NCBI GenBank assembly: GCA_021399445.1
Contig: JAJTUQ010000009.1
Span: 1,009,501-1,073,500 of the forward strand
Source: Xylogone sp. PMI_703
Lineage: Eukaryota > Ascomycota > Leotiomycetes
Length of the DNA stretch: 64,000 nt
Direction: 5' to 3'
The notes beneath the pieces were generated by a model. The model made no database searches. It was not told where the DNA came from and saw only the letters and a program-made list of their open reading frames with translations. The position numbers were made by a program, and so were the translations under genes. Of the stretch, positions 2,905 to 40,205 are shown piece after piece; within the stretch, counting starts at the first letter, position 1; the number at the start of each line of letters is the position of its first letter.

Positions 2905-5900
2905 TCAAATTTCGATGGTCTTGTTGAAGATGACCTTTTTCGCTAAGGGCGTGTCAGTATAGGCTAATTCTGCGCTGGGGTTTCAAGACAACTCACAAAC
3001 AGGAAACGGCCCCCACCTGCTCCCATTCTCAGCTAAGTACACCTTGAACGCCTCATTTACCAACTTGCTCTTCATCTCTCCAGCAGAGCCGGGCGCTCTT
3101 CTAAGATTGCTCAGCCGAGCGCACACACGTAGCATGCTGGCACCGGCAACAGTCACAATCGGACGACCAAGACATGCATGAGGACCCCAGCCATGATGGA
3201 TGTACAGATGATCTGGCCGGTCTAGCTTGATCTCGTGTGGATCAGGAAACTTGGAAGCGTCCAGACCAGCGGTCACAAAGTCTGTGAATATGGAGTCACC
3301 CTTTTTCACAGATACAACGCGAGGACCGTCTCTCACGTCGGCTTGGTCCGCAACAACAGTTCGGAGAAGGCCGAAGGCTGGAGTTGAGAGACGGAAGCTG
3401 GTAAAGTCTGTGAGCAAGCTCCTACTGTATGGGGAAATTGGAAATGAGACACGTACCCTTCCAAGGTGTACTTCTTCAACTTCTCGAAGGCTTCCGGCTC
3501 ATCCGACATCGCAAGCTTCTGAATCGCAGGCCAATGAGAGTAGTACTTGTCAGATAAGTACAAGTCAATCATCTGAGCCCACTGGGCATCGAATTAGATC
3601 TGCAAATATTCACCACGGAAATCGTCTACTTACACCTTGGGCCTGGGTAGCACATGCAGCAGCAGCAGTGGGAATAATTGTCCACACAGCCTCATCGACG
3701 CCTTTTCTGGACCCGAGCAGTCTATCGACTAGTTCCGCACCGTAGCTTCTTAGAACTTCATCGTTGGAGACTATTTGCAGTACATGACGCAGGGAAGGGA
3801 AGCTTTGCGCTTTGATCCCCATAACTGTCTTTTGTATCTTCTCGCCAAGGTCTTTCGTCTGTACCGCAGCTACAACGCGATTCTTGAACGATGCTGCAGT
3901 GTCCAAGTCGAGGAAGACGTAACCGAAGAGATTAGCGAGCACATCGCTCAGCGATGCAGCTGTATAGCTATCAGGTTCCCCCCCATTTTCCTGGAGAGGA
4001 ATTTCGAAGAATCGCGAGACAAAATGGGCATGGGCAAGGTTTCCAATGCTTTAGATGTTGTTAGCTCAATGACTGGGACATTTCCGGCTCTCACACTTAC
4101 TCTCTTACTATGTCCACCTGGTAGGACTCACCGATCTTGCGGCTATGCTGGCGAAACAGCTTGGCGGTGATGGACTCGTAAAACTGTCTCACTTCCTCGA
4201 GGCTGTCCTCTGGACTATAGAGGCACTGTTTGACAAAATCTCTTTGTTCGCTATTGGCCGGGGCGTCTCCGCTGAGCATGTAGTCATGGTGGGTCAGTTG
4301 GAACGTGTGATCGCCCCCTGTTGAATTGTGAGTTTCGCCAGAGGTTAGAATTACATCGGGATATCTCACATGGGACATGAAAGTGTTCCTGGTCACCGAG
4401 GACATCCACCACCCCCTGCCACGTAGTTATCGGAGTCGGCGGTACGATGAACGAAGGCTTGCTGAAGTCAAAGTTCTGTGAGGTGCCGAGCTTCTCGAAG
4501 GCCTCAAAGTTTGCTTCAGGTGTAGTGAAAGGATATAAAGCGTAGACGCTATTTGCGCGGTACCACCCAGGGAATGCCCGCATCAAGAGCTTGTACATCA
4601 CTCCGCCGCCAGCAACATCAAAATCAGAACTAACCTCCGTATAGCTACTTCCATGTCAGAGTAGTACACACGATAATTCTAAACCAAGCACCTTACCCGA
4701 AGCTGGTTAAGTTTGATGGACTGTAGTCAATGGTGAAAAACCTATCACCGCGGACGAGTGCGACAGCATCGGACAGGATCGCATATGAGGTAGTGAATCC
4801 AGGACACAATCCAGAGCCTGGCACCATGGGCTTCTTGGTCTCTTCAGCTACAAGCCCTGGATAGAGTTCGACATTGTCTGGATGTCCATAGATCGCCTCC
4901 ACTATTATTTCAGAGTTAGCGCCGTCCAATCAACCACGTGGGCTACAAATCATCATCTTACGCGCTTCAGCGACAGACGGATCCGGATTAATATCCACTA
5001 AGCGGAGTCAGCGCAAGTTACCCCTCATATACACATGGTTGGAGACTAACAAAAAGTCGTGTACGGCTTCAGCTTGAAGAACAGTCTGAATTCATTCAAT
5101 GTCGCCAAACCCCATTGGCGTCCTTGCTGTATCCCGTAAACCTCCACGGCCTTGAGAACACGGGGAATATTTCTAGCTCCAAAGGCTCCTAGAATGAAAG
5201 AGATATTGTGAGTAAACTTAACTAGTCAGCAGCAACAAGGTCCATTGCGGTAATACTTACCAGAAACATTCTCAGTTCCTGATTGGAGAAGTCGAACCAA
5301 CTCAGCATCTGGAAATTTTCCATCTTCTAACCGTGTAAGCCCACCGAAGGTCCACTTTTCCGGATCCTCTGGCAGACTCCCGCGCCATGTGCGGAGCCCT
5401 TGCAGGAATTCATCGGTGGACGTGTTATCTTAAGGACGAATACGGTTAGTGTTATGGCCAGGATACTTACTGGAGCTGCAGATGCCTTACCAGGGTTGCT
5501 ATTGGGTCCGAATACTTCCTTGTAAAATCCATCTGCCCAGGCTTCGTCTTGGCTACTCACAGCGCTGTGCCACCTGTATATCATATTAAATTCGACGCTC
5601 ACCTGATTCCCGATTCCCCGAGGGCTCCCCTGCAAGTCGAAGACTTGATTGAAATCCTCTCGAGGATCGAGTTTCCAGTCAGAAGGGACGGGATTCCGGT
5701 TGAGATTTAGAATAGTGCGGAGGTAGTCTGACAGGATCATGTTCACATAGAGACCACACGTGACACTGCAGATCAGGAAATTAGCTGGGAGCATCTCGGT
5801 TCAGGGCAAGGGACATACAGTCTTCCGGTCTGGAACAGATCGTTGTCGCGCTTCAGCCGTGCTTTATCGTAATCTGGATGGTCGGGCGTCATTCCTTTGG

Positions 5901-29414: not shown

Positions 29415-29640
29415 ATGGTATCGCTAGTACTATCGCATTATTAGTACTAGCGAAAGGATAGTACAAGTTCAACACTAGTACTGTAAAAAGGGTTGTACAA
29501 GCTAAAGGATAGTATTATCGAAGTTATAGTACTAACCCTTTGGTTGTACTAGCTAGGTAGTAGTACTATCGGAAAAATAGTACTACCTTTCCGCTTGTGC
29601 TAGCGATTTGCTCGTACGTGTAAAAAACTAGTACTAGTGA
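29415..29640. repeat. Array of short palindromic GTACTAGC/GATAGTAC motifs within the LTR U3
   Basis: At least eight dispersed, both-orientation copies of TAGTACTA-like words spaced about 20-30 bp, with intervening GAAAGGATAG. Confidence 0.6.
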
Positions 29641-29738
29641 TTAAGCGAGCACCTGGATTAGATAAGCGGATCCCATGGATCCCATGGATCCCCAGGAGGA
29701 TCGATGGGATCAATGGGACTCGAAGGAAATTCACTCTC

Positions 29739-29746
29739 TATATAAG
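29739..29746 (+). promoter_or_regulatory. TATA box of the LTR
   Basis: TATATAAG preceded by CTC, in the expected U3 position. Confidence 0.45.
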
Positions 29747-29915
29747 TAGATAAAACTCACAGTAGATAGGAGCTTCGTGCTCAACTCAATTGATTTACAG
29801 CATACCTGCATTTCATAGTAACTACCCTAAAGCCTTGTGAAGCTATTCTCTTGCCCTTTACCTTCATCTATCATTTGAGTGATAGATAACCCCATACCCT
29901 TGTAGGGACGTTACA

Positions 29916-32570
29916 TCGTTGTCCGATAAGGATAAGTTTGGCGTAAGTACAAGTCCTAGTATAAGGCCTGATATTATTTGTTCTACTCTTGATATAAGAC
30001 TAACTTATTAGCTTATTATAGTTTTCTAAGATACTTGATCTTAATCTCTTTAAGATAATATTCAAAATGTTATAAACTTAAGTTTTTATCTAAATCTTAT
30101 AGTATATATAAGTATATACTAAGTTATAAAAGAAGTTAATGAAAGCTTAAGGATTAATATAATATAGTATATAATTATAATTATAATTATATAAGTAATA
30201 ATCTATATTATAAATTAAATATAAAACTTTTATCTTAAGAATTAACTAAATTTATATAATAAATGAAATATTATTAAAACTCTTTAAACTTCCCGAATCC
30301 TCTAAGTTCTTAAATCCCTTGGACCCTCTAAGTTCCTTAGGTTTATTATATAATTTCTTATTACGTAATCCAAGGTCATGTTAGGTTCTCTGTATAACTA
30401 ATTACTGAGTCTCAGGCCTGATATTGTCCTAGTGTAGTTTATAACATTTATTTTATAAAAACAAAAATAAAAAACATTTCTAAGACAATTAAATAATAAA
30501 CAGATAATTTAGAAAAAATTTATAATTATTTAAAATATAATATTAAGTTTATGTAAAAATATATAAAAAAAATATTATAATCAAAAATATAATATAAAAC
30601 TTAAATTTAAAAAAAATAAAGTTTATATTATTTATAAATTTATTAAAACAATAAAATCAAATAATAAATTAAATTAGAAAAAGATTAATTCTTATAAAAT
30701 TAAAACAAAATTAAAAAATCTGATATATAAATTAAAATTCTTTAATATTATACAAATATATTTAGTATTTTATATAATTATATTAGAAAAAATATTATTA
30801 AAATTATTATAACTTTAAATTTAGAGTTAAAATAAGACTTAAATATAGAATAAAAAATATAAAAAATCTTAAATAACAAATTAATAAAGAATAAAAAACA
30901 TTATTTGATCAGATAGAAAGAATAAGAAGAGTATAATCAATTAAATATAAAAACTAGAAATATATTTTATTAACTTTAATAAGTTTCTAAAAAAGTATAA
31001 ATAAATAAAGTAAGTCAAGATAAATTGAATAAAATATTAGTATAAACAAAAAAATTAATATCAGAAAAGAAAACTTTGAAGAGGTTAATTTTTGTTTATT
31101 GAGTAATCTTTATCTAACGAAGTACTTTTTTCTTTTTTTGTTCTTATTTTAGTCTTTTCTTTTTTTTGATAATATTAAACTTATCAAAAATATTCAAACT
31201 TTTTTTAATATCTTAGAAATATATAAACAAAGTTATTGTTATTAAATATTAAGTTTTAACAAATAAATAAAGGTTTTTTTATATTTAGTTATTAATTTAG
31301 TTTTTTCTTGAATAATATGATTTTATTTTTCAGAATTGAGTAATAAAGTATTATACTTAATATTTTTCTTAATTTTTATATATTTAGTATATCGACGAAA
31401 ATCTTTTATTATAATATAATATAGTTTTTTCTTTTTACAAAAAGAATAAAAAGAATATATCAGAATTTTAGTAAACTTAATTTAAGAATATAATTATTAA
31501 TGATTTTCAGTAATTATTACTTTTTGTCTTTTAGACTTTATGAATTTTTCTGAAAGATTATATTTTAAGATTATAATAACAAAGAAAGAAAGTTTAAATT
31601 TTTACAAGATTATACTTATCTTGGTTATAAATTTTAGGACAAAACTAGACTAAGAAAAGAATAATATTATAACTTTATATTAATATTTTAAGAATAAATA
31701 TCAAGGAGTCAGAACAGCAAAACCTTATAGCTACAAGATTATTAAATCTCGGGATTATATGACTAAGTCGTTAAGTTTGATCAGAGGAATCAGGATTGAT
31801 CGAAGTTAATCCTTTGATTAATAAAATCTAAACTAATCTGACTAATCTTTGGATTAAAACTAATTTATACTAATTACTTTAATTTAATCCTGAAAACTTA
31901 TTACATAAAATAAAGGAATTAATATTATAGAATACTGAAAAATAAAAAGATTTTTATAATTTAGAAAAGTATTTAAAGAACAAGAAATTCTTAAGTAAAT
32001 AAAAGTTTTGTATTTAACTTAATTAATTATAATATATTTGTTTTTTATAATAAAGTTCTATAATTTAAGTTTTACTTATTCTTTTTACTTCTTAAACTTA
32101 TTATTTGAGTAATTACTAAACTTTAACATAAAAATATTATAATATCAAAAAACTTTTAAATTAAATAATATTTATCAAAGATTTATAATTATTAAACTAA
32201 TTCTATATAACTTTATATATATTATATTTAAATTACAAATTAAGATTAAAAAGATTATTATATTTCTAAGAAACTTTTATAATAATTCTAAAATATTTTA
32301 GATTTCAGAAATATTATAAAATTTAATTTGTAAAAAGATATTAAATAATTATATATAATATTATATTTCTGGCTAAAGAAATAAAGAATTTAAAGATTAT
32401 TAACGAATTAATTCAGCAAAAACTCAAGAAATCTAGAAAATAATTAATTTATACAGATTCTTTAATAATACAGAAAATTCAAGAATTAGTTCAATTAAGT
32501 ATAATTACTCAAAAAGTAGTAAAAGTGACAAATCCAGAGATTATGACATAAGTTTTACTAATATTACAGT
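29916..32570. other. Extremely AT-rich RIP block
   Basis: About 2.6 kb, especially 30440-32560, with almost no G or C and stops in all frames. It probably contains degraded internal parts of retroelements and a pogo element, recognisable only at its right edge. Confidence 0.6.
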
Positions 32571-32736
32571 GACAGTTACCTAAGTGCTCAAGATGTAGAA
32601 TTGTAAGACATAAAATAAACCAGTACTTTAATTTAGCTAATAATTAAATAGATTATAATATAGTTGTGTATGGTTGAATATTTGGTGTTGTACACTCAGG
32701 TGGTGAGGAAGTGATCCGACCGAGTGGGAGTTACGT
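32570..32736 (+). mobile_element. 3' end of a RIP-degraded pogo/Fot1 element
   Basis: Reads CSRCRIVRHKINQ then Tyr, then LANN and a stop at 32645-32647. This matches the zinc knuckle and LANN end of the element at 10.2 kb, with the last Cys turned to Tyr. About 90 bp later the sequence ends GGGAGTTACGT followed by TA, a variant of the terminal repeat end. The rest of the element presumably lies in the AT-rich block to the left. Confidence 0.7.
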
Positions 32737-33612
32737 TAGTACTAACTTACTAATTGTTATGGCACAAATGTTGTGCTGGTCAGCCGTAATAAGTGGTCTG
32801 TGTCAAGTGAAAGTAAGAAAACAGCAAGTGGATTTAAGCATACCCTTTAAGAGAACAGATTCCTAGTCTTATTAATTTAGCAAGACAATGTCGGGTTTGT
32901 AATCTAAGGTATTCATAAAATCCTTTAGGTGACAAGGCTCTGAATGGTTATCTCATACAAGCCCGAATAACCTCCGTTCAAAGTCTGCTATTCCTAGCGG
33001 GAATACCCGAGGGTGAAAAATACGGGGTAGCCTCTCAAGTACGGAGTAATCAGTGCACGGACTCCGAAGGAGAGTTTATTTCGGGTCTGTATGAAGCATG
33101 CATAGTTGTCGCATAAGTTACGGTTGTATATAGTAATAATTGAGTGATCTGTGTGTATTGGAGGTGTAAAGGTAGGTGGTCTATATATACAGCAAAATAG
33201 GGGGTTCGGTGATTGCCGGCGCTACAGCACGGCCGCCATATTATGCAACAATAGTATACCTGACTTTGCGCCCTTTCCGATATCATGCCAAAGATGAATT
33301 TGGAAGGTATTTTCTCTGCGATGCTAGAATCCTAGGAACAAAGTACCCTTAGATTTCAGTTGTAGTTTAGGTGTGGTCCTTTTGCCCGGCAAGCCATGGC
33401 GAACGGTGCATTTACTTTGTACAGGACGCAAATACTTCACCTTCCTATTTGTGCTCTATTGCCCTAAGAAGTACTTTTCCATAGTATTCTACGAATGTAC
33501 ACAGACATGAAAATGTGGTATATCGCGCCCTGCCTGAAAGTAATCAATCGCATCTTAAATCGAAATTGTCCGGTTGTTCTGTGGCAAGTGGCCAGCTCTG
33601 GGAACTGAAGAG
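32737..33612. other. Intergenic upstream of the micro-exon gene
   Basis: No gene seen. Base composition returns to normal from about 32900. Confidence 0.4.
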
Positions 33613-33619
33613 TATAAAT
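33613..33619 (+). promoter_or_regulatory. TATA box of the micro-exon gene
   Basis: TATAAAT, 126 bp upstream of the ATG at 33745, followed by a pyrimidine/CA-rich leader. Confidence 0.5.
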
Positions 33620-33744
33620 CAGACCATATTCCTGCACTCCCCTACCCAGAATTGTCAGTTTTCAAGATTGAGAAATTGTCTTCCTCATAACCAGTTGCCA
33701 GAATTCGCTACACCCGAACATACTAACTTAGAGACTTGACAGTC

Positions 33745-34858
33745 ATGCACGCCCAAATATTTCTATCGTTTCTCATTGTGGCAATGGCAATGGCCGCCAC
33801 AGCGGCAGCTCTACCTACTTCCAAGAGACCGCAATCGCTTAAAGAGAGAGTAAGTGACCCAAGTTTACAAATTTGATTCACATGATGTCTTCAATTTAGT
33901 GATGGCGGATATAGCTAACATAATTCTGGCTGAGTAGAATGTACGTGATCCTGTGTCTTAAATATATTAGGTTGATAGCAACAAATAACTGATATAATTC
34001 TGATGGAATAGCCTGTAAGTAATTTCGTATCTCTACATACATGGGTTTAGATGACAACAGCGGATGGCTAACATGGTTTTGGTGGAATAGCAAGTAAGTG
34101 ATTATATATCTTCAGACATATAGATTTAGATGCTGGCAGCAGATGGCTAATATTATACTGGTTTGGCGGAATAGGTTGTAAGTGATCTCTCGTCTTTGAA
34201 TATATATTCCAGGTGACAGTGGCAGATAACTAATATAGTTCTGACGGGGTAGGATGTAAGTGAACTATGTCTTTAAAATATTGGCTTCGGATGATAGCGG
34301 TTGATGGCTGATATGATCCGGATGGAATAGCCTGTAAGTGATCTTATAACTTCAAATATATAAATTTAGACGATGACGGTAGATGGTTAATATTGTGGCT
34401 GGTGAGATAGTCTGTACGTGATCTCATCTTAAAACACATGGGTTTAGGTGACAGTGGCAGATGGCTAATGTTATCTTTCCTCATGGGATAGGAAGTATGT
34501 TATCTCATGTCTCTGTGCATCCGTGTCATAATGGATGGCTAACATTGTGCTGGATGGTCGAATAGTTTGTAAGTAGCTTTATATCTTTATGTGTATAACT
34601 TGAGATGATGGCAGCGGATGGCTGATATTACGCTCGATGGTGGAATAGTTTGTAAGTGATACAACACTCCAGAGCGCATAAACTTTGGATGATAGTGGCA
34701 AATGGCTAATATTCTGCTGCGGAACAGTTTGTAAGTGATGCTCTACCTCGAGGTGCATAAATTTTAAAGAGTTGTAGCGAATGGCTTATATGATGTTTCA
34801 TTGGTGGTAGGCACCGAATTACGAAGAGTCCAATTCTGAAGACAGCGCTACACCATAG
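33745..34858 (+). CDS. Secreted peptide precursor encoded by a single-codon micro-exon array (12 introns, 11 exons of 3 nt)
   Basis: Exon 1 (33745-33849) encodes 35 residues: a signal peptide (hydrophobic residues 5-22, ending near AAALP) and a short basic pro-segment with a Lys-Arg pair at 27-28. It stops exactly at a GTAAGT donor, phase 0. Then come eleven exons of exactly 3 nt at 33938, 34012, 34091, 34175, 34253, 34331, 34411, 34492, 34566, 34649 and 34728, coding N-P-Q-V-D-P-S-E-F-F-F. Each lies between an AG acceptor and a GTAAGT, GTACGT or GTATGT donor. The last exon (34811-34858) reads APNYEESNSEDSATP and TAG. Total 61 residues. All 12 introns are 71-88 nt, similar in sequence, and nearly all have a GCTAAY or CTGAT branch site. 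No family is known to me. Splicing of 3-nt exons is inferred; skipping all would give a 50-residue product in the same frame. Confidence 0.7.
33850..34810 (+). repeat. Tandem array of 12 related introns (period 74-84 bp)
   Basis: Introns: 33850-33937, 33941-34011, 34015-34090, 34094-34174, 34178-34252, 34256-34330, 34334-34410, 34414-34491, 34495-34565, 34569-34648, 34652-34727, 34731-34810. The shared core is GGCAGATGGCTAATATT, then a TGGTGGAATAG acceptor, three bases and GTAAGTGAT. Spacer sequence has diverged far more than donor, branch and acceptor. Confidence 0.85.
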
Positions 34859-35610
34859 AGAACAGTGGCGTGAAAACACATGGCAATGGTTTTAAGAAGT
34901 CAAGAGAAAATTGGTTGGGCGTATCACTCTTTTCAATTGAACATTCCGCTTTTCATTCGATAGCGCGATTCAACATCGTCCTCGGGTGATAGTTAATACA
35001 TTGTACTCACCATATCTTTTATATTGCAATATGCTGGGTTCCGATTGTGTATAACCTTATCCATTTGATCCATAGTTAATGCCAATTATAGTTTCACTAA
35101 TCACTCTATGTCGCTTACTTCTCTATTATAATCTGAACTCACGGTTGATTTCCTCACCTCTTTCAAGAGATCCTTGGCTTTTATTACCTTTGAGTGATTA
35201 TCCTACGAGATAATGTAACAGGTGAGCCTTATAAATAAGGGGGGTTCCGAGTTATATATTTGAATTGCACACCAGGTACCAGTTGAGTAAAACATAGTGC
35301 AAGCTAGGCATTCAAATACCTATTGTATGAAATGCTTCATATACTGAAGGTTGAACACAACGTGCTTTCATGAAAGTCACGAGAATATGCAGCTAATTGG
35401 CCAATACCAACCGAAAAACATGGATAGGTTAGCTCTGTAATGCTGACGTGAGCCACGTGGATCAAGAAAGAGACCCGTTCGGATGGTTGCGAAACAGGTT
35501 TTTACTTAACGCTATTAGGAATCCAGATCCGACGTCCCGTTTGGCTCTCTCCATCGTCCTTTTTGAATAATACTGTCATCGCATTCTCATTTCGATTCTT
35601 GTCGCTTATG
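34859..35610. other. Intergenic between the micro-exon gene and HET-ankyrin gene
   Basis: Presumed 3' end of the micro-exon gene and promoter of the HET gene. No other feature seen. Confidence 0.4.
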
Positions 35611-37482
35611 ATGCACTTGATCAATACCAAGACGTGCAAACTTGAAACACTTGGTAATCCGACACCACTGTATGCAATCCTCTCTCACACCTGGGGAGGA
35701 GACGAAATCACTCTCCAAGACATCCAAAGCGGAAAATTCGACGAGAATAAAGAAGGATATAAGAAACTTAGAAACACCTGCTCTGTAGCAGCTTCTCATG
35801 GGTTCGAGCATGTCTGGGTTGACACATGCTGCATTGATAAGACTAGTAGCGCAGAGCTCTCCGAAGCAATTAATTCTATGTACCACTGGTACCAAGAATC
35901 AGGAGTTTGTTATGCATACCTCTCGGATGTGCCTTCCTGCCCTACCGGCAGCCAAGCCAAGAGCTTACCACACGAATTCTCAACTAGTCGTTGGTTTAGA
36001 AGGGGGTGGACACTTCAAGAGCTTATAGCCCCATCAACTCTGATATTTTTGGACCAAGAATGGCAACAGCTGGGCACTAAATCAAGCTTGCAAGAGGACA
36101 TATCTGAAATCACAGCTATACCTGCTGAAGTATTACTAACAGGTGACCTTAAAAGTACTAGCATCGCGCAGAGGATGTCATGGGCGTCCAGAAGGGAGAC
36201 GACGAGGATTGAAGATATAGCTTATTCTCTGATGGGTATCTTCGGTGTCAACATGCCCATGCTTTATGGAGAGGGAGAAAAGGCATTCATTAGGCTCCAA
36301 GAGGAGATCATGAAGTTCTCAGATGACTACAGTCTTTTTGCGTGGTCATCAAATGGTAGCCGTGGTGGACTTCTCGCAACGTCGCCTGCTGCATTTGCTA
36401 ATTCCAGGGGAATTGTTACTTTGGAAGCATCCAAGAGTCTAGGCAAAAGTATTATGGTGGATAACAAGGGGATCCATTTAATGGTCCGTTCCCGGGAAAT
36501 TAGGCCTGGCTCCACTGTTTTGCAGGCTATCCTTTCCTGTGGATTAAAGTCCAGTGAGGAATGGAGGGTGGCTATTCATGTAGAAGAAGGAATGGTGGAG
36601 ACCACAGGATCAGATGAGAAGGAAATTCCAGAGTCGACGGGGTTCTACGAAAGGATAAAGGATCGGCATGAACTGCTCGGTATTGATGATACTGAGTTAG
36701 TGAAATATCGTGAGAGGAGAATTTGTATCCGAAGAGAACGCCTGACACGACGGAGTGAGCCACCATTGATGAGAGCAGCGAGATGCGGAGCTGAGTCGGT
36801 AGTAGAACTACTACTTAGCAATGGCGCGAATGCAAATTTCAGGGCCTGGGATGGATATACGCCATTAATAATGGCTGCACGTAACGGACATGAAGGTGTT
36901 GTAAAACTGCTGCTCACCCGAGGCGCAGAAGTAGATCTCAAGGACACATCTTTCAAAAGAACACCGTTATTATGGGCTACCCTTAGTGGCCATGAAAAAG
37001 TAGTCAGGCTACTTCTTGAGGCAGGTGCTGAAGTGGAATTTAAAGATAGAGTTTATAGGCGGACGTCTTTAGGTTGGGCTGCATACAATGCCAACAAGGA
37101 GGTAGTAAAAGTGCTTCTTGAAAAGGGCGCTCGACCGAATTCTAAAGACAGATACGGCCGCACGGCACTGTCTTGGGCTGCGATCAGAGGACATGAAGAA
37201 CTAGTTCGATTACTACTAGAAAGAGCTGATGTGGAGGTTGATTCGAAAGATGCTGCTGGCAGATCACCGCTATCATGGGCCGCAGTGACGAAAGAGGAAG
37301 AAGATACATCCATAGGCAGTAATTCTGAAGGCGTTTTAAAGCTATTGCTTGATACCAATGCTGTTAATATAGAGAGCAGGGATGTAAACGGTGAGACGCC
37401 GCTTTCTTTGGCAACAGGAGAAGGATACCTTGAAAGAGCTAGACTGCTACTTGAAAAAGTCTCAAACACGCCTTCTGCTTGA
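35611..37482 (+). CDS. HET-domain and ankyrin-repeat protein (heterokaryon incompatibility type)
   Basis: Single exon, 623 residues from ATG 35611 (another ATG lies one codon upstream; MHLINTKTCKLE matches the family start). HET domain in residues about 20-110: LYAILSHTWG, ITLQDIQSG, VWVDTCCIDK and WYQESGVCYAYLSDV, followed by WFRRGWTLQELIAP and the usual post-HET block IEDIAYSLMGIFGVNMPMLYGEG. From about residue 381, seven ankyrin repeats run to the C-terminus (for example TPLIMAARNGHEGVVKLLLTRGA and TALSWAAIRGHEELVRLLLERA). Proteins of this type act in allorecognition and trigger programmed cell death on heterokaryon mismatch; repeats serve as the sensing part. The frame is clean, in contrast to its RIP-killed relative at 28.9 kb. 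Confidence 0.95.
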   Translation: MHLINTKTCKLETLGNPTPLYAILSHTWGGDEITLQDIQSGKFDENKEGYKKLRNTCSVAASHGFEHVWVDTCCIDKTSSAELSEAINSMYHWYQESGVCYAYLSDVPSCPTGSQAKSLPHEFSTSRWFRRGWTLQELIAPSTLIFLDQEWQQLGTKSSLQEDISEITAIPAEVLLTGDLKSTSIAQRMSWASRRETTRIEDIAYSLMGIFGVNMPMLYGEGEKAFIRLQEEIMKFSDDYSLFAWSSNGSRGGLLATSPAAFANSRGIVTLEASKSLGKSIMVDNKGIHLMVRSREIRPGSTVLQAILSCGLKSSEEWRVAIHVEEGMVETTGSDEKEIPESTGFYERIKDRHELLGIDDTELVKYRERRICIRRERLTRRSEPPLMRAARCGAESVVELLLSNGANANFRAWDGYTPLIMAARNGHEGVVKLLLTRGAEVDLKDTSFKRTPLLWATLSGHEKVVRLLLEAGAEVEFKDRVYRRTSLGWAAYNANKEVVKVLLEKGARPNSKDRYGRTALSWAAIRGHEELVRLLLERADVEVDSKDAAGRSPLSWAAVTKEEEDTSIGSNSEGVLKLLLDTNAVNIESRDVNGETPLSLATGEGYLERARLLLEKVSNTPSA

Positions 37483-37807
37483 TCCAATGCGTGGAAACTG
37501 CAATAGAGGTCAATATATGGACGGCACATCTCAGATTAATAGATCGGAATGGAATAGAACTACCGTAATTCCATCATTACTAGCAATTATGCTAGTTTTA
37601 ATAACATATTGCGATATTTAATAAGTATAAATGAATCTTTCTGATATCAACATCATAAAAATTCATGCATACTGTCAAATCCGACTTTCCACTCCTCAAT
37701 GAATCATCACGACCTCATTGGTACAAGATTATGTTAGAATCCAGTTTCACCATCTGGCCTTCTTATCGGGCTCTATATATAAATATGTATGTGTGTGTAT
37801 GTGTGTG

Positions 37808-39020
37808 TCATCCAGACGTCCCTGTCCCAATGAATACCACCAGAACGGCAGCATATGCTGCAGTACTGGCCAAGACATCCTTTTCCTGGTCCAGGAAATA
37901 TGCCATAATAAGACCAAATCCAGTGACAAAGGCCGTTGTCGAAATGAGCGAGATATATAATCCTTTCTTCAGCACCATCAACCACATTGGGCCCAATAGA
38001 AAAGCCCCACCCATGGCAGCAACTGCAACACGCCGCCTGAAGCCGAGTTGCCACATCTTAGAGACATTAGATCCGCGAGTGCCGCAGATGGGCTCGGCCT
38101 TTTCGTTCTTCTCTTCCCACCTTTTCAGTGACCATTGTTGTGTTTCTATCATTTGGACGAGCTCGTCGTCGATATTGCAGTTGAGTACGTAGTTATCGAT
38201 GTTATACTCCCCCGTGGCAAGGAATGGATCGCGGGCCGATTTACTTCGTTTTTCCATGTAGTCGTGGTCCTGCAAAGCCTTGACTGTGGCATATCGAAAT
38301 GAGCAACTATCTTTGGCAACGAGAAGAGACCGGTAGTTGGACACTCACTATACTGCTCAAGTGTTTGTTCCCAACCGTCGACCTCGCGATGCTCTTTGCG
38401 CATTCTTGTTATGTCTCTCACCAGTTGGCATTGAAGCTTTCGAATGCGCATCCGCTGCACTTCTGCAAAGCTGATTCTGTACCGTTTCCCATCCCCAATA
38501 TTTGGATGCTCAGATGTTTTCTTGTTATCAACTCCTCGAATTGCAGCCCATAAATTTTCAAGCAGGGTCTGGCTAGGACTGGCATTCCATTGTCGAAGTT
38601 CCGTCACAAGGCCGTCAAGATGATGATCTATGACCCAGTTTCCAGGATCATCGCAGTCGAGTTCTATTCTTCGATCCTGGTGCGTTGTTGGGTGCTGTAG
38701 GTCAACACTATATCTGAGTGGCGGGCTGCTATTTTTTCTAGACCGCAGGCTGGCGTTCGGCGAGCCAGCTCTTTGTGCAACTCCCGTCTCATCTCCTTGA
38801 CTGAGTCTCCGGGACCTCACAGGTCTAATACTATGGTAGCTTCCACGTCTGTGTGATCTGAGGCTATTGGATTCGCCTTCGTCTTCAGCTGTAGTCCATG
38901 TGAATATATTAGTCTCGACTACAAAGGACACTGATTCAAAACTAGCATGGCGGATTCCTTACAGACGTGAGATACATGGAGTGTTTCTGCAATCTTTTCA
39001 ATGTCTCGATCCAGACTCAT
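37808..39020 (-). CDS. DUF6594 membrane protein
   Basis: Three exons (39020-38963, 38918-38349, 38283-37808) join to 367 residues with introns of 44 and 65 nt, both GT..AG. The start MSLDRDIEKIAETLHVSHV is short and precedes a Ser/Arg-rich disordered stretch. The DUF6594 core follows: EVQRMRIRKLQCQLVRDI, then YIKALQDHDYM across intron 2, then FLATGEYNIDNYVL. The last 80 residues contain three membrane helices (around AMGGAFLLGPMWLMVL, LISTTAFVTGFGLIMAYFL and AAYAAVLVVFIG), the typical end of this fungal family. Function is unknown; members often lie near HET genes. A GTGTGT-rich tract begins beyond the stop. Confidence 0.88.
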
Positions 39021-40205
39021 GCTGATGAAATAAAATCAAATTGCAGCTGTAAGGCTGGCGGGTGGTGCCGGCCAGTTAACAAAGAAAAATAGAGATCACA
39101 GCCTTGTGCTGTCGTGGTGCAACAATGATCTGACAGCCGGGCTTAATCCATTTCTTGCATTAGAGGTTCCATCCGTAACAATCTTGATGCTAAGAGTGGA
39201 TCCCCCAAGTCCCGTAATTTGGCCGCGAAGTGGCAATTAGTCCGTGTAATCAGGCCATGAAGTAGCGGTTGGTCCGCGTCCCGGCCCTCGAGATGTACGC
39301 GGTGAGGGCTACGAACCTATAGCATTCCTGAGGCAATGTCTATAGAGCTGAGATTGAGTCAAATCGGTTCGAATCGAATAATTAACGTTATACTTGCGTA
39401 CTATATCATCTTGTTGTTTGACTTCATTCTCGATCGTAATTACTCCACAATTTTTGACAACGTGACCTTTTCGAAGAACTCAGGAAAATATTATGAATTG
39501 TTTAACTACTGAGAAAGAAAAGTTCAGAATATTTATTATTAAGTCTGTCTAAAAGGTTTTTGATTAACTCTGATCAAGTCACCTAGGATTTAGGTTTGAA
39601 GAGTTTGAATACTTATTCACAAGAAAATAAAAATTTTTATAAATTACCTCAAACAACAAAGAAAGTTTATATGGAATAGCTTAAATTACAGTCAAGCGTA
39701 TGTTAGAAATGTTTTCTAGGGTATATAAAACATTGCGACACTGTAAGATCAGGGACCCAGGATTGTCCGTATCAAGAGTTCTTTTTCTCCTTGTGGTTTT
39801 TGGTTCTTGTTATTGACAATATTTATATATAATTCCTTAGTTTAACACGTCCTAATACCCCCAGGGAGATCTCAGGGAGCAGGTTTCACCTGCCCCCGCT
39901 GGACGCAAATAACTATCATCATCATCATCATCATCATCATCAAGATAACCATAACATGCCACGATCCCAGTCTTGAGGCTGTGGAAGGACCACTCAATTG
40001 TCCTGGAGATTATCAATCTGAGGCGACCTACTCGGGGTATATCCCATGATCCAATCTGATAAATAGCTTTCAGCTCTCCATCCTTTTGAATTATTAGCAT
40101 TTTGAACCGCATCTTCTTTCCACATGCATTTTCAAGCACGCTCTGTCAAAAGACCTTTTACCCCTCATCTCATCTCAAGCACATATTACAAAACAAACGA
40201 CCGTC
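39021..40205. other. Intergenic with an ATC microsatellite
   Basis: 39200-39340 is GC-rich without a gene. The AT-rich part at 39360-39860 has no frame. A minus-strand 95-codon frame (40139-39852) crosses the ATC repeat and would encode nine Asp; no domain, judged doubtful. Confidence 0.35.
39915..39942. repeat. (ATC)n microsatellite
   Basis: About nine tandem ATC/TCA units. Confidence 0.9.

Follow-up and report, generated by a model that had tools for sequence, protein, structure and literature searches.

A gene in Xylogone sp. PMI_703 (33745..34858 of the window, the whole 64-kb stretch of DNA that was analysed) quite probably encodes a small secreted peptide in which each of 11 residues in the middle sits on its own 3-nt exon, these exons having arisen by tandem duplication of a spliceable intron-plus-codon unit. 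The finding is wider than first noted, since the same genome holds, besides the window array, related loci on C21, C5, and C3 and two enzyme genes with 3-nt exons. The build of the window gene recurs in two of these loci, with a whole (C21) or truncated (C5) array, and in a short relative, C3.

The window gene and its one-codon exons

As read from the sequence, the gene consists of a 35-codon exon 1, 12 introns, 11 exons of 3 nt, and a last exon, all on the + strand, with a TATAAA box-like site (33613..33618, +) 132 nt upstream of the start codon. Exon 1 (33745..33849; 105 nt) ends in phase 0, and its N-terminus, MHAQIFLSFLIVAMAMAATAAALPTSKRPQSLKER, resembles a signal peptide when judged by eye, without a predictor: it is hydrophobic and has small residues ahead of a likely cleavage site. 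Introns 1 to 12 lie at 33850..33937, 33941..34011, 34015..34090, 34094..34174, 34178..34252, 34256..34330, 34334..34410, 34414..34491, 34495..34565, 34569..34648, 34652..34727, and 34731..34810 (88, 71, 76, 81, 75, 75, 77, 78, 71, 80, 76, and 80 nt, respectively). All 12 are related GT-AG introns of 71-88 nt in phase 0; the donor of intron 9 is GTATGT, and intron 12 has no match to the CTRAY branch motif, carrying the weak branch site CTTAT instead. Between the introns lie the codons AAT (N, 33938..33940), CCT (P, 34012..34014), CAA (Q, 34091..34093), GTT (V, 34175..34177), GAT (D, 34253..34255), CCT (P, 34331..34333), TCT (S, 34411..34413), GAA (E, 34492..34494), and three times TTT (F, 34566..34568, 34649..34651, and 34728..34730), which together read NPQVDPSEFFF and include no stop codon (0 of 11). 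The last exon (34811..34858) contributes 15 codons, APNYEESNSEDSATP, and the stop TAG, giving a predicted peptide of 61 residues before processing. Thus, the preliminary description, in which 12 introns separate 11 one-codon, phase 0 exons and the flanking exons stay in frame, was borne out by this reading, with every one of the 11 very short internal exons measuring exactly 3 nt.

Retention of any of the 12 introns would bring an in-frame stop into the message (in intron 8 the only such stop is its own acceptor TAG), and the lengths of 8 of the 12 are not multiples of 3. Consequently, the frame of the window gene depends on splicing. The array is presumably spliced in vivo, with all 11 codons included in the mature mRNA, and the resulting peptide would then be secreted; indeed, the plainest guess is that the window gene and the related array genes all encode small secreted peptides. 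Dibasic sites are present in exon 1 of the window gene (KR) and in exon 1 of C3 (KKR), and we take these to be the motif used by Kex2-type processing.

The surroundings of the gene include a very AT-rich block about 2 kb upstream (30001-32000; GC 0.16 vs 0.416 for the window), and the next downstream ORF (35563-37482) codes for a protein with a HET domain and, after it, ankyrin repeats. One window ORF has six relatives at E <= 1e-20, four of which bear the name Xylogone sp. A Pfam scan that covered 10 of the 16 window ORFs of at least 150 codons gave matches of the HET-ankyrin, NmrA, alpha/beta-hydrolase, and NMT1/THI5-like types. A scan of the forward strand from 29501 to 39402 returned the HET-ankyrin gene only, and a scan of the array strand of the C21 locus returned an APC3/TPR gene and methyltransferase matches. 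A RiPP-type gene cluster was rejected within the reach of these domain scans, namely the 10 window ORFs, the forward strand around the window array, and the array strand of C21.

Kinship of the units and their splice signals

The regular spacing of the array was compared with what the same DNA yields at other exon lengths. A chain was defined as a run of [CT]AG-N(k)-donor junctions with intron-sized gaps between them; the longest chain in the 64-kb window reached 11 at k = 3, compared with 1 or 2 at each of the other values of k from 1 to 30, both strands being included. In 60 first-order Markov windows, which were scored for k = 3 only, the longest chain was 1 (58 windows) or 2 (2 windows). 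Together, these spacer-length and Markov controls rule out a chance origin of the window array.

The units of the array are also related to one another. With donor and acceptor removed, the interiors of the window introns have a mean local score of 14.4 vs 7.2 in mononucleotide shuffles that kept the last CTRAY-like match of each intron as a branch-like motif, the pairs that enter this mean not being independent of one another. As tandem duplication would have it, the units are homologous across their intron interiors and lie in the same orientation. This interior homology, together with the presence of three further similar loci in the genome, supports the initial proposal that one intron-plus-codon unit had been amplified. 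Pairwise identity of the window units is about 0.62, with no excess among neighbours (0.628 vs 0.619); at C21 the neighbours show a small excess (0.804 vs 0.754). Tandem Repeats Finder did not detect the window array, at the roughly 62% identity of its units.

Sequence conservation within the units is concentrated at the splice signals. Among the 12 window introns, mean pairwise identity is 0.93 at donor positions +1..+6 (0.89 at +3..+6), 0.78 at the branch site, and 0.94 at acceptor positions -3..-1, compared with 0.54 in the remaining body. The earlier claim that donors, branch sites, and acceptors had been kept while the rest of each unit drifted therefore holds for the signals as a group, but in two respects it was too simple: fair conservation extends to the sequence immediately upstream of the branch site, and intron 12 has a weak branch site. 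If the splice dinucleotides had drifted at the rate of the body, survival of all 24 AG/GT dinucleotides would have a probability of about 1e-8, a rough figure in which sites are treated as independent. Splice signals kept within a drifted body are what selection for splicing of each unit would predict, and such selection, which had been proposed at the outset, is supported by this pattern.

These same features bear on two other readings of the array. First, the tandem units might amount to one long spliceable intron with redundant sites, such that exon 1 is joined to the last exon in most transcripts, or the units are removed stepwise with loss of the codons, the spacers being by-products of duplication. 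The reading frame would permit this arrangement, given that exon 1 can be joined to the last exon in frame even without the 3-nt spacers and that every ordered subset of the codons keeps the frame as well. However, inner splice sites in such an intron would be free to decay, yet 24 of 24 splice dinucleotides are intact in units that are only about 62% identical, and we regard one long intron as rather unlikely. Second, the array might be a decaying or non-coding tandem repeat, for example a satellite in a dead gene, that merely resembles a series of splice sites. The strong drift of the units, the GC-poor block upstream, and the transposon that cuts the C5 array (see below) would all be compatible with decay. 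Such a repeat is nonetheless very improbable here, because the signals have been conserved and the body has not, the spacers are 3 nt in 11 of 11 cases, the gene retains an intact start codon, signal-peptide-like N-terminus, frame, and stop behind a TATA-like box at -132, and a similar build recurs in the genome. On the conservation of splice signals, a plain satellite was rejected. The antisense strand of the array offers no long frame, its longest stop-free stretch being 71 codons, and an antisense repeat protein was rejected on this length and on the many stops.

Related loci and three-nucleotide exons in the genome

The 50.1-Mb assembly (25 contigs) was searched for a 3-nt exon lying between two GTAAGT...TAG introns. 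The whole genome gave 16 matches vs 6 for a reversed control, and the 16 fall into six loci, each with a splicing explanation: the window array (4), C21 (5), C5 (4), C3 (1), C19 (1), and C22 (1). Since the reversed control still produced 6 matches, the count alone is not proof. Genome-wide, a version of the pattern with a 6-nt spacer gave 2 matches (C9:83326-83460 and C22:3578479-3578615) vs 3 in the control, and a version with a GTATGT donor gave 0 vs 1. A sequence model of the units, run on six sequences, picked out the four known loci again and had no match in L021 or L022. Protein searches with the window peptide and the C3 peptide found no relative. When the window array and the C21 array were used as DNA queries against the genome, each matched only itself, a result in which a distant copy could be missed. 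Intron sequences are array-specific, and the weak similarity between arrays is slightly above that of shuffles. Because the introns are specific to each array and neither the window array nor the C21 array matched any DNA but its own, amplification looks both repeated and local.

A further reading, in which an introner-like or stwintron-like mobile intron inserted repeatedly near one site, can be weighed on these searches. Introner families and proliferating stwintrons do exist in ascomycetes, according to the available text of two reports (PMC9860276, PMC8469720), and like them the window array consists of sequence-similar spliceosomal introns that have proliferated; the introns of different arrays are also slightly more alike than shuffles. 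In contrast to stwintrons and introners, which as described there sit at many positions or are nested, the window introns are arranged head to tail with one codon between them. Each of the 12 possesses a full donor and acceptor of its own and is parted from its neighbour by a codon, so that none is a stwintron. Likewise, the window and C21 arrays, each of which matched only itself in the DNA of the genome, gave no sign of copies dispersed over many genes, as introners would be, subject to the same proviso about distant copies. Given that the regular head-to-tail order and the constant 3-nt spacer fit tandem duplication better, we attach almost no weight to repeated insertion of a mobile intron.

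The C21 locus begins with a signal-peptide-like exon, MKISVTIITLFAGAATGMVVKEPKIPED, followed by nine one-codon exons that read CPPGQPPCP. Eight of its nine junctions were caught by the donor pattern, and the ninth, which has a GTAAGC donor, was seen by eye. The last unit (L019 4566-4430, - strand) has lost its branch motif, and three ends are possible for the gene: an immediate stop after a 62-nt intron, with an acceptor position that matches the other units; a 31-residue tail, NTDVVAGSEDSDPLIRYDVAGVKRYNLVTSC, after a 39-nt intron with an earlier acceptor; or, if the last donor is unused, 7 residues and a stop. The alternative tail shares the short string SEDS with the last exon of the window gene, which may be chance. 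C21 showed no TATA-like site within 220 nt.

The C5 array has five one-codon exons (QAGCG), after which come a last Cys codon and a stop; its 5' part has been cut by a transposon. Within L018 1920-5010, the inverted ends of this element, at approximately 1920-1938 and 4583-4601, are imperfect, and its ORFs are judged by eye to be hAT-like transposase. Another hAT-like fragment, in the opposite sense, lies just upstream. That C5 survives only as a truncated relic means that arrays can be lost as well. The C3 locus is the shortest in this group: a Cys-rich, signal-peptide-like exon, a 21-nt exon, the 3-nt exon TGT, and a stop, with a TATA-like site 126 nt upstream of the start. Judged by eye, a signal-peptide-like first exon is present in all three loci with an intact 5' end.

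In both C5 and C3 the stop directly adjoins the last one-codon unit; thus, the array forms the C-terminus of the protein. This arrangement speaks against one long intron with redundant sites, and for C21 the same argument depends on which acceptor is used. The array-ending stops (L018 5000-5011, +, in C5 and L020 4875-4866, -, in C3) resemble shifted or broken GTAAGT/GTGAGT donors, which suggests one way in which an array might end.

The two remaining pattern matches are single 3-nt exons in conserved enzyme genes (C19, C22). In the gene for mitochondrial aspartate aminotransferase (L007, C19:2857694-2857822, + strand), the conserved Asp of GPPD-ILG (VPQGPP-D-AILG) comes from the 3-nt exon GAT, and the exon after it measures 10 nt. 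An 82-residue stretch of this protein, joined by eye, matched solved mitochondrial enzymes with a best E of 1.7e-27, ungapped in two alignments, and skipping of the 3-nt exon would delete one conserved residue in frame. Automatic annotation may well drop both the 3-nt and the 10-nt exon of this gene. In a GH18 chitinase gene (L013, C22:3387194-3387314, - strand), the phase 2 exon GGA completes the Trp and the Glu of the catalytic DGVDIDWEYP region (VDID-WE-YPG; best E 9.8e-25), and without it the frame meets an in-frame TGA stop. Because two conserved enzymes need them by homology, Xylogone sp. PMI_703 very probably splices 3-nt exons, which again counts against the idea that the array is removed as one long intron. 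Isolated extreme micro-exons are documented elsewhere: 1-nt exons in Arabidopsis (APC11; PMC4674806) and Fusarium (CYP621A; PMC12940212), and a micro-exon in Trichoderma Xlr2 (PMC11121469). Plants and ascomycetes can thus splice exons of 1 or a few nt; in the available text of these reports, however, the micro-exons are single and are described neither as arrays nor as products of intron amplification.

The codons of the arrays show a bias that can be read in more than one way. T occupies the third codon position in 19 of 26 codons vs 12 of 52 instances at positions 1 and 2 combined (Fisher 5e-5; within-codon permutation 7e-4), the 26 codons comprising 11 from the window, 9 from C21, and 6 from C5 (the last of which lies in the final exon), without the C3 exons. 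This bias, which is suggestive only, would fit residues that diverge while synonymous third positions stay quiet. However, it may instead reflect a splice-site preference, since T also precedes donors outside the arrays, namely in C21 exon 1, C3 exon 1, the C3 21-nt exon, and the enzyme exon GAT. Window exon 1, which ends in A, and the chitinase exon lack T as their last base, and no third-position T bias is seen in the C5 array by itself. The stop that comes right after the last unit in C5 and C3 is better evidence for coding than the T bias.

Mechanism, known systems, and significance

In the explanation that we favour, an intron-plus-codon unit of about 80 nt would have been duplicated in tandem inside a small secreted-peptide gene to form the array, each unit bringing a donor, a branch site, and an acceptor. 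Working by intron definition, the spliceosome would then take out the 12 short introns in succession and join the codons between them. Fungal introns are short and are recognised by intron definition; consequently, the length of the exons would be no obstacle. Since all junctions are in phase 0 and every spacer is one codon, any donor could be joined to any later acceptor without a frameshift, and unequal exchange could add or remove units with the frame intact, so that the peptide would change by single residues. The preliminary description had suggested that residues could be added, lost, or skipped in this way, and computation agrees: the window array has 2048 ordered codon subsets, all of them in frame and free of stops, which specify 992 distinct peptides. 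Intron definition has been discussed for a 1-nt exon, in the available text of that report (PMC4674806).

The arrays may have a role in peptide diversification. A tentative possibility, which we consider doubtful in this full form, is that the spliceosome builds secreted peptides from one-codon modules, such that alternative joining would yield a mixed set of in-frame products and gain or loss of units would change the peptide between strains.

Several known systems share parts of this design. The micro-exon genes (MEGs) of Schistosoma encode secreted proteins from many short exons, mostly multiples of three, and are thought to give protein variation; in the portion of the source consulted, the exons span 6-81 bp (3-81 in its abstract), mostly 15 bp, and the introns 0.1-5 kb (PMC10526429). 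The analogy with schistosomes that had been drawn for the window gene is fair in layout, because both have many short multiple-of-3 exons in a gene for a secreted, or here putatively secreted, protein, but it is not a claim of kinship. Unlike the MEGs as described, the window array has exons that are all one codon and introns of about 75 nt that are copies of each other, and the organism belongs to another kingdom. The bicycle genes of aphids evolve fast, many have N-terminal signal sequences, and many of their exons are small and of one phase; nearly all of their internal exons have phase 2, and CYC motifs are present in the proteins (PMC9168663). In contrast, the exons of the window array are 3 nt and 12 of 12 introns are phase 0 rather than phase 2, and the available text on bicycle genes does not describe an origin from repeated introns. 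Tandem genomic duplication has been proposed as a way to create introns (PMC4974935); unlike intron gain as set out in the available part of that work, here intron-plus-codon units have been multiplied up to 12 times. Literature searched by name for a single-codon exon array yielded no paper, and a fungal case of such an array, which the preliminary description had also been unable to name, was absent among the matches listed, subscription papers and preprints being largely outside the coverage.

If the favoured explanation is true, amplification of an intron-plus-codon unit can give rise to a coding array whose individual residues act as modules, open to gain, loss, or skipping with no shift of frame. 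Such a gene would also provide a natural test of the spliceosome on runs of 3-nt exons, bearing on the order of intron removal, on skipping, and on intron definition. Finally, the arrays would represent a type of small secreted-peptide gene that standard gene prediction probably overlooks or splits up, which would matter for the annotation of fungal secretomes.
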